From: Kaistia dalseonensis
Lineage (GTDB): Bacteria; Pseudomonadota; Alphaproteobacteria; Rhizobiales; Kaistiaceae
Reading direction: 5' to 3'
NCBI RefSeq assembly: GCF_030814715.1
Contig: NZ_JAUSVO010000002.1
Coordinates: 744,001-808,000 of the forward strand
DNA: 64,000 nt
The notes under the pieces: model-generated
What the model was told of the DNA's origin: nothing
The model's input: the letters and a program-made list of their open reading frames with translations, nothing else
Databases searched by the model: none
Part shown: positions 42,299 to 47,433 of the stretch, piece after piece
Position numbering within the stretch: the stretch's first letter is position 1
Layout: each line of letters begins with the position of its first letter
Position numbers and translations under genes: made by a program

Positions 42299-42654
42299 TA
42301 GCGCCCCACGACCGCCTCATCGTAATCCGTCGACCTTCTAGCGCAGATCTTGCCGCTTGGACATGACGTGGCGGCATCTGGGCATGGAGAGGGCGCAATG
42401 TTGGCGGCTGCTCCACGGCAAGGAGTACGCAGCCCCGACCTGCGATAGCGGGAGGTGGGCGCGGTCGTCGCATCCAGGATGACGGCCCCGGAACGATGGG
42501 CATGGCAACTTGTCCGATGTGGGCGCCAAAACGGTCGCATCGAGGCCCCGAACAGGCCATGATCCGGGGCCAGATTGGGGAGGAGTGGCGGCCGGCGCTT
42601 GTATCGGGCGACGGAGAGGGCCACATCATCCGTTGATTGAAAAAGGCGGAGACG
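42299..42654. other. Divergent intergenic region between lipase and small membrane protein genes
   Basis: These 356 bases hold the promoters of the lipase gene (left) and the protein at 42655 (right). A 7-bp inverted repeat GGCCCCG/CGGGGCC is at 42544-42571. No gene or clear consensus promoter is seen. Confidence 0.4.
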
Positions 42655-43219: not shown

Positions 43220-43407
43220 AGTTGATCGCTGCGCCGACGCGGCGGGTCTACGATCTCTCCAGCCGCCGAGCGCGGCACCGATCGCCTGCGGAAGCATGAC
43301 CTCCGCGCGACGAGGCGGCGAACGATCCCGCCCCGTGACACGCCTGACCATCTTCCCCGGTGACCGGACCGCGTTTGATTGGGTGCGGCCGTTCAATGGA
43401 GGATGTC

Positions 43408-43761
43408 ATGCAGACCATGATGGACCGAACGAGCCTCAAGAAGGCCGTCGAGGGCAACAATGCCGCGCTCTGGACGGGCATGTATGCCGATGATGCCGAG
43501 GTGCGCGTCATCGACCAGGACCATCCCCCGAGCAAGCCGCTGGTCCTGAAGGGCAAGAAGGCGATCGGCGCCATGTACGACGATATCTGCGCGCGCAAGA
43601 TGAAGCATCATCTCGACGAGAGCGTGATCGAAGGCGACCATCTCGCCTTTGCCGAGACCTGCACCTACGACAATGGCACCAAGGTCTATTTCAGCGCGAT
43701 GGCGGAACTGAAGAACGGCAAGATCAGTCGCCAGACCAACATCCAGGCCTGGGATCGCTGA
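43408..43761 (+). CDS. SnoaL/NTF2-like fold protein
   Basis: A 117-residue small alpha+beta protein. The helix-rich first half (LKKAVEGNNAALWTGMYADDAEV) and the later FAETCTYDNGTKVYFSAMAE plus GKISRQTNIQAWD fit the NTF2-like cone, used by many ligand-binding or scaffolding proteins. The ATG follows GGAGG. Catalytic residues are not evident. It is convergent with the ATP-grasp operon. Confidence 0.7.
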   Translation: MQTMMDRTSLKKAVEGNNAALWTGMYADDAEVRVIDQDHPPSKPLVLKGKKAIGAMYDDICARKMKHHLDESVIEGDHLAFAETCTYDNGTKVYFSAMAELKNGKISRQTNIQAWDR

Positions 43762-43767
43762 TCCCGT

Positions 43768-43801
43768 GGAGGCGTGGTCCGCCCCGCCGGGTCACGCCTC
43801 C
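43768..43801. terminator. Shared terminator-like hairpin between convergent units
   Basis: GGAGGCGTG (43768-43776) pairs perfectly with CACGCCTCC (43793-43801), with a loop of 16 bases. It overlaps the stop codon of the ATP-grasp gene (43792-43794) and lies just after the NTF2-like gene, so it may end transcripts from both sides. There is no long T-run. Confidence 0.45.
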
Positions 43802-45243
43802 AGCCGGTCGACGAACCAGCGTGTCAGCTCGATCCAGACCTGGTCCTTCTCGGCCGCATCCTCGATGCCGTGCTCGATATTGGGATTGTCGTTGACCTCG
43901 ATGACGAAGAAGCCATCGTCGGTCTGCTTGATGTCGACGCCGTAGAGGCCGTTGCCGATCAATTGCGCTGCGCGGAGCCCGATATCGATCACCTCCGGCG
44001 GCGCCTCGCCGATCGTCATGGAGCGCAGGCCGCCTTCGAGCGCCTTGCCGTTCGGCTGGTGCTTGACGATCTGCCAGTGGTGCTTCGCCATCGTATATTG
44101 GCAGACGAAGAGCGGCTTGCCGCCGAGGACGCCGACGCGCCAGTCGAAATCGGTCGGCATGAACTTCTGCGCCAGCAGCAGGTCGGTATCCTTGAACCAC
44201 GCCTTGGCGAGTTCATCGAACTCCGCCGCATTGCCGACCTTCTTCACGCCGCGCGAGAAGGAGGAATCCGGGATCTTCACCACGAGGGGAAAGCCGAGCT
44301 CGTCGGCGGCGCGCTCCATGTCGCCATGGCTGGCGAGGATCACGGTCGGCGGCACGGCGATGCCGTTTCCGGTCATCAGTTCCTGCAGATAGACCTTGTT
44401 GGTGCAGCGGATCATCGAGATGGGATCGTCGATGACGGGCATGCCCTCCTGCACGGCGCGGCGGGCGAAGCGGTAGGTGTGGTTGTCGATCGAGGTCGTT
44501 TCGCGAATGAACAGCGCATCGAATTCGGCGAGCCGCGCCAGGTCCTTCCGCGTGATCGGCTCGACCTCGACGCCCATCTTCTCCGCGATGCGCGCCCAGT
44601 GCTTGAGTGAGGCGAGGTTCGAGGGGGGCATCTTCTCGCGCGGATCGTGCAGCACCGCGAAGGAATGGCGCGGTGGCGTCCGCGTCTTGCGCGAGCGCCA
44701 TTCGCGCCGCGTACGGTCGTGCAGGGCCTTGTGGAAGAAGGCGAGCTCGTCCGGAGCGAGCCTGGTGATCGAAACCGCCGCGAGCTTGCGGATCTCGGGC
44801 CGGCTCGTCTCCTCGATCGTCACGTCCAGAACCGGACAGCGGAACCAGTCGAACAGCAGCCGCGCGAAACGGTCGAAACGCTTGTCGGCGCAGATGCCGA
44901 ACATCACCAGGAGCCGCGCGGGGATTGCCCCGTCCTCGTGCCGCGCCTTGACGAGCTGGTCTTCCAATTCTGGCAGCGCCTGCGCGTAGAGCGAGCGATC
45001 GGCGAGGTCGATCATCGTCTCGACGGTCGGCACCACCCGGTGGCCGCGCGCGCCGGCGAGCAGCGAGGCGTAATAGCCCCGGCTTTGATAGGCGAAGGAG
45101 CGCGACAAGTTGATGATCTTGGGACGCGAGCCGCGAAAGAGATTGGTCCGCGCAAGATAGTCCTTGGTCGTGATGACCTTGTGCGGCGTATCTTCGTTGG
45201 GGAAGTCCTTGGGATGATCGACCAGTATGACCCAATCGGACAT
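43792..45243 (-). CDS. RimK-family ATP-grasp ligase with N-terminal RLAN-like domain
   Basis: A 483-residue amidoligase-type protein. The C-terminal ATP-grasp domain (about residues 280-475) has the glycine-poor ATP loop VVKIPDSSFSRGVKKV and the metal-binding VIEVNDNP with Glu449 and Asn451/453. The N-terminal 150 residues fit the RLAN domain that accompanies this RimK subgroup and differ from true RimK. It would join an amino acid to a peptide or metabolite through an acyl-phosphate. It starts three bases after the GNAT/C39 gene, so the two are translated from one mRNA. The substrate is unknown. Confidence 0.85.
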   Translation of the reverse strand: MSDWVILVDHPKDFPNEDTPHKVITTKDYLARTNLFRGSRPKIINLSRSFAYQSRGYYASLLAGARGHRVVPTVETMIDLADRSLYAQALPELEDQLVKARHEDGAIPARLLVMFGICADKRFDRFARLLFDWFRCPVLDVTIEETSRPEIRKLAAVSITRLAPDELAFFHKALHDRTRREWRSRKTRTPPRHSFAVLHDPREKMPPSNLASLKHWARIAEKMGVEVEPITRKDLARLAEFDALFIRETTSIDNHTYRFARRAVQEGMPVIDDPISMIRCTNKVYLQELMTGNGIAVPPTVILASHGDMERAADELGFPLVVKIPDSSFSRGVKKVGNAAEFDELAKAWFKDTDLLLAQKFMPTDFDWRVGVLGGKPLFVCQYTMAKHHWQIVKHQPNGKALEGGLRSMTIGEAPPEVIDIGLRAAQLIGNGLYGVDIKQTDDGFFVIEVNDNPNIEHGIEDAAEKDQVWIELTRWFVDRLEA

Positions 45244-45246
45244 AGT

Positions 45247-46437
45247 CTACCTCTGCTTGAGAACGACTGCGGCACGCAGCGGTTCCCGGCCCCAGCGGGC
45301 CATGCGTTCGAAATCGGCATAGGGAATCGGCAGGTTGGCGGCGTCGGCATGCGTCTCCAGCTCGCGATCCTCGACCCATGGGTCGTGGACGAAGAGATGG
45401 CGGCCGTCATCGCCGACCACGAGGATCCAGTGGGGCACCTTCTTGCCGAACATGGCATAGGCCGACACCAGCACGATGACGAGCGCGCCCTCGGCGAGCG
45501 CGGCGCGGATCGCCTCGACATCGAGCGGCGTGTGAAAGATCGGAATGTCGAAGGCGATCGTCTGGCGACGAAAATCCTCCTGCGCCAGCGTCATGACGCG
45601 GCGCTTCTCGGGATCGCGCACGGAATCGAGGAAGAGCGATCCGTCGCGGCTGACATGCACGGCGGCGGCAAGGCCGTTGCGCGCGGCCGAGACGGCAAGG
45701 CCGTGCGGATCGCAGCCGCCGACGCCCGACATCATGAACACCGTCGTTGCCTGCCGCCAGAGCTTGATCTCCTCGACGGGCGCGAGCGTGTAATCCGGCC
45801 GGAAATGGGCGAGCGCCATCATCACGCAGCACGGGCCGCAGGTGAAATCCGTCGTCTGCTCGTAATAGGGCACGGCGGTGGAATGACCGGCGCCGCGCAG
45901 GCGCTTCTCATAGCGCAGCGCGTTGGCGTGATCCTCGTAATAGTCGAGATAGCGCCCGATGCGGCGAAAGCCGAGCCGTTCATAGAGGCGGATCGCGCCG
46001 GGATTATCCTCGCGCACCTCGAGGCGCAGCACGATGCGGTCACGCGCAAAGGCGAGCCGCTCGGCCTCCGCCATCAGGGCTTCGCCAATGCCGGCGCTGC
46101 GCCGGTCGGGCGCCACCGCGATCGAATAGAGGCGCGCCATGCCGGTTCCGGCGCGGAAGAGCAGCAGCGCATAGCCGACGAGGTCGCCGTGCGGTGTCTG
46201 GGCCACGGCGAGCGCGGCGGTCGGCGCATCGACCAGCTTGCGAAAGCTGCGCCTCGACATGCGGTCGCCCGCGAAGCAGCGTTCTTCGAGATCGACCAGC
46301 GCGTCGACATCGGCGACCACGGCCAGCCTCAGCGCAAAAAGCGTTGATCTGTCGGCGGGCGCGGAGCCGGCCATGCGTGCAGGAACGCCCATTGCGGCCG
46401 TCCACCAAGGCGATGCGCCGGGGGTTCGGCGCGTCAT
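45247..46437 (-). CDS. GNAT acetyltransferase fused to C39-like peptidase domain
   Basis: A 396-residue fusion. Residues about 35-180 are a GNAT acetyltransferase (RLYSIAVAPDRRSAGIGEAL is the acetyl-CoA loop, LEVREDNPGAIRLYERLGF the terminal segment). Residues about 186-370 are a C39-like peptidase: Gln194 and Cys200 in EQTTDFTCGPCCVMM, His336 in VPHWILVV, Asp352 in HDPW. I keep the ATG at 46437, though ATGs at 46392 or 46374 are possible. Its fusion to a GNAT and its partner ATP-grasp ligase suggest an acylated small peptide or protein as a common substrate. Confidence 0.85.
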   Translation of the reverse strand: MTRRTPGASPWWTAAMGVPARMAGSAPADRSTLFALRLAVVADVDALVDLEERCFAGDRMSRRSFRKLVDAPTAALAVAQTPHGDLVGYALLLFRAGTGMARLYSIAVAPDRRSAGIGEALMAEAERLAFARDRIVLRLEVREDNPGAIRLYERLGFRRIGRYLDYYEDHANALRYEKRLRGAGHSTAVPYYEQTTDFTCGPCCVMMALAHFRPDYTLAPVEEIKLWRQATTVFMMSGVGGCDPHGLAVSAARNGLAAAVHVSRDGSLFLDSVRDPEKRRVMTLAQEDFRRQTIAFDIPIFHTPLDVEAIRAALAEGALVIVLVSAYAMFGKKVPHWILVVGDDGRHLFVHDPWVEDRELETHADAANLPIPYADFERMARWGREPLRAAVVLKQR

Positions 46438-46470
46438 CGACCAAGCGTTTCGGCCGCAATTGCGGCGACG

Positions 46471-47433
46471 CTAAGGCTGGGCGGGATTGCTCGGCGCGAC
46501 TTCCTCGGCGAGTTCGTCGGGCACCCCCGGCGGCGTGCGGGTCTGCTCGCGGAAGAATATGAAGAGGCCCGAGGCGATGATGATCGCCGCTCCGATCAGT
46601 ACGCTCATCTTCGGCGTGTCGTTGAAGAAGATGTAGCCGAAGATTACCGCCCAGATCAGCATCGTATACTGGTAGGGCACGACCACAGAGGCGGGGGCGA
46701 GCTTCAGCGAACGGTTGACGCAGAAACTCGCGAACAGGGCGACCACGCCGAGGAGCAGCAGCAGCGCCAGATCGCGCGGGGTCGGCGTAACCCACTGGAA
46801 GGGTGCGAGGACCGCGCCGGCCAGGAAAGCCGCGCCGGTCGAGAAGACGAGCAGCGTGCTGTCGGCCGTCCCGCGCAATTGCCGCGTCACGATCATCAAT
46901 ACGGAATAGACGAAGCTGCCGGTAATCGCGATCAGCGCCGGCCAGCTCAATGTCGACGAGGACGGATTGAGCACGATGATCACGCCGACGAAGCCGACCA
47001 GGATCGCGGCCCAGCGGGCGCCATCGATCTTCTCCTTCAGGAAGATCGCGGACATGGCCGCGACATAGATCGGGCCCGCGAGATAATAGGTCATCGTGTC
47101 GGCGAGCGGCATGTAGCTGACCGCCCAGTAGAAAAAGCCGATCTCGGTCGTCGAGAGCGCGACGCGCAGCAGTTGCAACCCCCGATGCGGGGCGTGGAGC
47201 AGGGCGCCGATGCCGCCATCGCGATGGGCGAAGGGCGCCAGCACGATCAGCGCGCCGAGCGAGCGGACGAGCAGGATCATGCCGACGGAATAGGCCCCGA
47301 CCAGCCATTTCCCCATCGCGTCATTGATCGAATAGAGCAGGATGCCGAGCACCATCAGCCCGATGCCGAGAGTGGTTCCCGACAAGGCGAAGGATGACGA
47401 GTGGGAAGCAGCGGGGCGAGGCAAGGACGACAT
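46471..47433 (-). CDS. EamA/DMT-family transporter
   Basis: A 320-residue inner-membrane protein with ten predicted helices in two EamA repeats (GIGLMVLGILLYSINDAMGK at the start and FCVNRSLKLAPASVVVPYQY in the second half). Members are often exporters of metabolites or amino acids. It ends 33 bases before the GNAT/C39 gene on the same strand and is probably the first gene of that operon. The ATG at 47433 is preferred over a TTG two codons earlier. Confidence 0.85.
   Translation of the reverse strand: MSSLPRPAASHSSSFALSGTTLGIGLMVLGILLYSINDAMGKWLVGAYSVGMILLVRSLGALIVLAPFAHRDGGIGALLHAPHRGLQLLRVALSTTEIGFFYWAVSYMPLADTMTYYLAGPIYVAAMSAIFLKEKIDGARWAAILVGFVGVIIVLNPSSSTLSWPALIAITGSFVYSVLMIVTRQLRGTADSTLLVFSTGAAFLAGAVLAPFQWVTPTPRDLALLLLLGVVALFASFCVNRSLKLAPASVVVPYQYTMLIWAVIFGYIFFNDTPKMSVLIGAAIIIASGLFIFFREQTRTPPGVPDELAEEVAPSNPAQP

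Follow-up and report, generated by a model that had tools for sequence, protein, structure and literature searches.

A RimI-like acetyltransferase gene and an RLAN-domain ATP-grasp ligase gene form a conserved proteobacterial pair with an accessory peptidase domain

N-acetylglutaminylglutamine synthetase is a system in which a GNAT and an ATP-grasp enzyme together make an N-acetylated dipeptide; its NCBIfam model, TIGR03103 ('trio_acet_GNAT'), provides a precedent for the association of the two kinds of enzyme. A 2009 amidoligase survey by Iyer et al. reportedly predicted amidoligase systems of the kind described here. That survey is cited in PMC10318531, where DUF3335 is described as often fused to GNAT domains, and PMC12239564 describes the RimK-RimB and Rlo systems, in which an ATP-grasp ligase is paired with an aspartic peptidase. 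We analyzed a related locus within a 64,000-nucleotide stretch of the Kaistia dalseonensis genome (assembly GCF_030814715.1, contig NZ_JAUSVO010000002.1, positions 744,001 to 808,000; hereafter 'the window'), in which a gene encoding a GNAT/C39-like peptidase fusion lies beside a gene encoding an ATP-grasp amidoligase with an RLAN domain. The two proteins of the window exceed the Pfam cut-offs for PF14401, PF08443 and PF11814 and share these domains with RLAN ligases that have GNAT-DUF3335 partners – a known kind of system, with families already in Pfam (PF14401, PF11814), but without an assigned function. The original prediction, made from the DNA letters and their translations, had described the system as not characterized. 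This stands for its function as far as the literature was searched (with the terms used, we found no paper assigning a function to the pair and none naming both gene products), but not for its families, which are named, or for the DUF3335-GNAT fusion, which appears in PMC10318531. The locus as seen here has a core of GNAT and ligase, with the C39 domain optional and a neighboring EamA transporter gene only local, features that may in part have been noted in the 2009 survey.

We found that the conserved unit is two genes, one for a RimI-like GNAT and the other, next to it, for a RimK-type ATP-grasp ligase with an RLAN domain. In the window these genes and their domains are arranged as follows (positions are those of the window).

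45247-46437, minus strand: GNAT/C39-like peptidase fusion gene, 396 amino acids (PF00583, 4.9e-17; PF11814, DUF3335, 3.4e-79); first core gene, its C39 part accessory
45901-46341, minus strand: RimI-like GNAT domain, about residues 33-179 of the fusion; the ligase's conserved partner
45256-45873, minus strand: C39-like cysteine peptidase domain (DUF3335, named 'Peptidase_C39 like' in Pfam), with the catalytic set Q194/C200/H336/D352
43792-45243, minus strand: RLAN plus RimK-type ATP-grasp amidoligase gene, 483 amino acids (PF14401, 1.2e-40; PF08443, 1.3e-8); second core gene
44728-45165, minus strand: RLAN domain (PF14401), an extra domain N-terminal to the RimK-like core
43870-44400, minus strand: ATP-grasp domain, ligase residues 282-458, holding K283, K323, H389-W390-Q391, D437, E449 and N451

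To define the unit we counted 133 ligase loci, 125 of them from outside Kaistia; three repeated records had been removed beforehand, and some near-identical loci remain in the count. A GNAT of the same kind adjoins the ligase in 128 of the 133. Its placement varies – upstream on the same strand, divergent or downstream – and the pair has thus been kept through rearrangement. Two of the five remaining loci are uninformative, with 92 (L044) and 2 (L148) bases of upstream sequence. Among 61 related genomes, RLAN was found in 22 and DUF3335 in 11. Across 299 genomes sampled from the phylum, RLAN was found in 56, DUF3335 in 47 and both in 46 (hypergeometric P 4e-43, a value that ignores relatedness), and the two lie no more than 3 kb apart in 44 of the 46 genomes that have both. 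The RLAN ligase is thus widespread, yet the pair has no function in the literature searched. We also looked for further co-conserved neighbors in 68 loci (63 with a ligase); apart from the ligase and GNAT-C39 families and their antisense frames, the largest recurring families lie at varied distances and on either strand. The GNAT-ligase pair is real and old.

A single genome of the same class (G303) encodes the GNAT and the RLAN ligase in one open frame of 659 amino acids (L154:8553-10532), with a separate GNAT-C39 gene adjoining it tail to tail. No second fused GNAT-ligase frame occurs in the 133 loci, and of the 33 genomes that matched in a search of 289 genomes of the class, this one alone has the frame without a stop. 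Two further candidates, G404 and G517, match the G303 protein over its full length with one internal stop, and we counted them as neighboring genes. Another genome (G117) carries two RLAN ligases (L163 and L164), each paired with a divergent GNAT of its own; only one of these two GNATs is fused to a C39 domain.

The original prediction had identified an ATP-grasp metal motif, VIEVNDNP, in the ligase, and we found this motif in place. PF14401 matches the protein at 139 bits (cut-off 25) in front of the ATP-grasp domain, and the RimK domain PF08443 matches at 35.2 bits (cut-off 21). Across 132 aligned ligase rows, K283, K323, R247, D367, R369, H389, W390, Q391, D437, E449, N451 and N453 are invariant; the predicted ATP and metal residues (K283, K323, D437, E449 and N451) are therefore intact in every row. 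The roles of individual active-site residues are assigned here, as for the other domains, from general knowledge of these folds. The ligase falls below the cut-off of the RimK-family model TIGR00768 (77 bits in the protein scan and 78 in the genome scan, against 143.4), and no gene reached that cut-off in the genome profile scan.

In its AlphaFold model (mean predicted local distance difference test score, pLDDT, of 86.9) the ligase core has as its top match among solved folds ArgX in complex with the carrier LysW, with LysX, RimK and D-Ala-D-Ala ligase (Ddl) also among the nearest; profile searches of solved structures agree with the fold matches for both the ligase and the fusion. The ligase shares its ATP-grasp core with RimK, LysX and ArgX (18-22% identity; template modelling score, TM-score, of 0.75-0.84 by target length) and differs from them in the extra RLAN domain and in the invariant HWQ motif at residues 389-391. 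The original prediction had described the N-terminal domain as unlike RimK. An RLAN domain is indeed found there, but it precedes the RimK-like core: the ligase is a RimK-like core of about 300 residues with RLAN placed ahead, and the RimK N-terminus is not replaced. No fold was assigned to the RLAN domain itself, as the top 50 matches of the full ligase model cover 297-327 columns, which corresponds in size to the ATP-grasp core. The same genome encodes a second RLAN ligase (L002:550-2004; G000:C2:405922-407376) that is 37% identical and retains the ATP-grasp residues; no GNAT adjoins it, and its upstream neighbor of 257 amino acids has no Pfam match. Two apparent fused ligases, in L127 (861 amino acids) and L105 (681 amino acids), were rejected as out-of-frame read-in beside a normal GNAT-C39 gene. 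Four phage records match, covering just 42% of the query.

The fusion protein likewise carries both of its predicted domains. PF11814 matches at 265.5 bits (cut-off 25), a GNAT domain is fused to it and the Gln194-Cys200-His336-Asp352 set that the original prediction had picked out is present and does not vary over 33 aligned rows of fusion proteins. A larger comparison, of 89 C39 domains and the reference row, shows no variation at Q194, C200 or H336; position 352 is aspartate in 87 rows and glutamate in 3. Aligning 131 GNATs with the reference row gives 132 rows, of which all have E140, 131 have N145 and 131 have Y167; the Y166-Y167 pair is conserved. Judged by these alignments, the predicted active sites of ligase, GNAT and C39 domain are all conserved.

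The AlphaFold model of the fusion (mean pLDDT 85.9) has RimI and Ard1 as its best fold matches, and these are the nearest GNATs by profile as well; the window GNAT keeps E140, N145 and Y166-Y167. It differs from RimI and Ard1 in being fused to a C39 domain and in scoring below the cut-off of the RimI model TIGR01575 (79.5 bits in the protein scan and 82.5 in the genome scan, against 86.4). Another RimI-like gene elsewhere in the genome scores better, at 85.6 bits, still just under that cut-off. Two DUF3335 proteins (L181:8245-9339 and L182:12189-13397) have no recognized GNAT domain, their first 150-190 residues matching no Pfam family; their genomes also carry the usual pair.

The C39 domain is an accessory part that has been gained or lost many times, because it is present on the adjoining GNAT in 82 of the 128 loci, is not on the GNAT in 46 and requires at least 10 changes on the ligase tree. 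One locus (L041) has a separate C39 gene beside a GNAT that lacks the domain. In 10 of the 56 genomes with RLAN there is no match to DUF3335, and in all ten a GNAT adjoins the ligase. On the tree of 132 ligases, a quick kind with long branches from which the short row L078 was left out, the C39-fusion label needs 20 changes, of which at least 10 are forced by well-supported branches. A single clade of fusions is rejected on the same tree (p-AU, approximately unbiased test, 1.5e-61).

The original prediction held that the ligase and the GNAT-peptidase form or edit an amide-linked product. The conserved adjacency, the intact active sites and the G303 fusion support this, and the pair is best read as forming or editing such a product. 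We propose a two-gene pathway, to which we give even chances, in which an N-alpha-acetyltransferase of the RimI type and an RLAN-domain ligase would cap and ligate, yielding an N-acetylated amide or dipeptide. The GNAT would acetylate an amino acid or short peptide on its amine, a cap that may also prevent self-polymerization. The ligase would use ATP to activate the carboxylate of the capped compound as an acyl phosphate, which would then be joined to another amino acid through the amine of the latter to form the N-acetylated amide or dipeptide. In lineages that have it, the C39-like cysteine peptidase could cut, trim or recycle that amide; many lineages lack the C39 domain, and it would therefore be unnecessary for synthesis. 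The layout of the G303 frame is similar to that of TIGR03103. The pair in the window differs from TIGR03103 in that the ligase, which has an RLAN domain, is encoded by its own gene and the GNAT is far under the cut-off.

One locus bears on the nature of the product. In Legionella adelaidensis (L148), a GCS2-type ligase and an N-formylglutamate amidohydrolase come after the RLAN ligase – neighbors that, in this single case, point to N-acyl glutamate-like compounds. The record itself is 9 kb long and labelled a plasmid; it also carries fur and bamE, which have a chromosomal look.

Several points weigh against the cap-and-ligate proposal. None of our results identifies a substrate, and for both domains the solved relatives have protein ends or carrier proteins, besides small molecules, among their substrates. 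The window GNAT scores 37 bits against TIGR03103, for which the cut-off is 569. Three loci with adequate flanking sequence have no GNAT adjoining the ligase: the genome's own second copy (L047), a Pseudomonas aeruginosa locus (L147) and L169, in whose genome a GNAT-C39 gene lies elsewhere. Finally, the ligase tree is of a quick kind, has long branches and cannot separate loss of the C39 domain from its gain. A broader version of the proposal – that a widespread proteobacterial N-acetylated amide or dipeptide metabolite is made by this two-enzyme pathway, with the fused cysteine peptidase as an optional switch for recycling, one that has appeared or disappeared 10 or more times – is one we put forward tentatively, as possible but doubtful.

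The strongest alternative is a protein-tail system, which we consider unlikely. Here the ligase would add amino acids to a protein C-terminus or side chain as RimK does, the GNAT would act like RimI in acetylating a protein N-terminus and the C39 domain would remove the tail, so that writer and eraser would correspond to RimK and RimB. The solved relatives nearest to the two domains, RimK/LysX/ArgX and RimI/Ard1, are consistent with this, as is the trimming of RimK products by RimB in Pseudomonas reported in PMC12239564. However, known chemistry suggests that RimK-type tailing would consume the incoming amine and leave none for the GNAT to cap, and the genome's other, better-scoring RimI-like gene also speaks against such a role. 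One S6 observation is in its favor: comparing Kaistia genomes that have the pair with those that lack it, the S6 tail changes by a single residue near its end, although this may only follow descent. Against it, the tails in all 14 Kaistia genomes are otherwise alike – ending GGAE in the 6 without the pair, GAAE in 7 of the 8 with it and GAE in the window – and S6 tails are not supported as a substrate signature.

A ribosomal-peptide or carrier-protein pathway is less probable still. The ligase would then act on a small precursor or LysW-like carrier, the GNAT would modify that precursor or carrier and the C39 domain would cut it free. In favor of such a pathway, the top fold match of the ligase is ArgX complexed with the carrier LysW, and C39 peptidases release leader peptides in other systems, according to PMC8939145. 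Against it, the C39 domain is dispensable. We compared small open reading frames (20-90 amino acids, within 2.5 kb) from 63 ligase loci by BLAST with a low-complexity filter and E 1e-3, and no family was common to three or more loci, though very short or diverged precursors could be missed by this comparison. The carrier and ribosomal-peptide reading is weakened because no shared small frame was found.

The cap-and-ligate proposal concerns two genes, while the original prediction had joined them to a transporter in a three-gene unit whose product leaves the cell. Two neighboring genes of the window are relevant to this claim.

46471-47433, minus strand: EamA transporter gene (PF00892, 2.7e-27, in two stretches); judged to be outside the unit
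43360-43761, plus strand: SnoaL-like gene (PF12680), whose presence or absence follows the pair in Kaistia and for which we claim no role in the unit

The coordinates and Pfam matches bear out the three minus-strand frames, their domains and their spacing, with 33 bases between the EamA and fusion genes and 3 between the fusion and ligase genes. The 33-base gap hinges on the annotated start of the fusion, because residues 1-28 have pLDDT below 50 in the AlphaFold model and the first possible start in many fusion homologs lies at about residue 32; the frame of K. adipata is as long as that of the window.

To place the transporter we compared 14 Kaistia genomes, the window included. An EamA orthologue is present in all 14 (60-69% identity in the other 13), and the pair is present in 8 (split over contigs in G007) and absent in 6. 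In the 6 pair-free genomes, the helicase gene, the EamA gene and the gene at 42637 are neighbors, with no pair gene between EamA and that gene. In the same family, G016 has both the fusion and the ligase, and G017, G018 and G020 have the GNAT and the ligase; all four have their EamA orthologue (49-54% identity) at another genomic location.

Outside Kaistia the association disappears. In 101 loci searched to 4.5 kb, EamA matches were confined to the nine Kaistia loci. Among the 125 non-Kaistia loci, searched over all of their available flanking sequence and 11 of which have less than 3 kb of upstream sequence, no EamA homolog lies within 4.8 kb of the ligase, and the only three EamA-like frames are each more than 4.8 kb away. 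Frames with six predicted transmembrane segments (6-TM) lie upstream on the same strand in 21 of the 133 loci; seven of these are the Kaistia EamA, and none of the 14 from outside Kaistia matches EamA. The transporter is therefore not conserved beside the pair in relatives outside Kaistia, the check by which the original prediction had proposed to judge its three-gene unit. EamA is a local neighbor that adjoins the pair only in Kaistia, and we rejected it as a member of the unit, since 6 of the 14 Kaistia genomes keep it in position while lacking the pair, and it is not beside the pair outside the genus. Export of the product had been argued from the transporter and is left unsupported; we found no evidence for it in this analysis. 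A three-gene biosynthesis and export unit is thus very improbable, even though EamA lies on the same strand across a short gap and, in each of the 8 Kaistia genomes that carry the pair, adjoins the GNAT-C39 gene (the G007 ligase sits on a different contig).

With two core genes, a dispensable peptidase and an incidental transporter, biochemical testing becomes simpler, needing two proteins and an amino-acid screen. The split of Kaistia into eight genomes with the pair and six without, at matching empty sites, provides a natural comparison for metabolomics. The pair and the SnoaL-like gene together fill the interval between EamA and the gene at 42637 in the window and in the six pair-bearing loci that were fetched. 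The SnoaL-like gene, present in all seven of these and absent at all six empty sites, may belong with the pair to a single block that was gained or lost.

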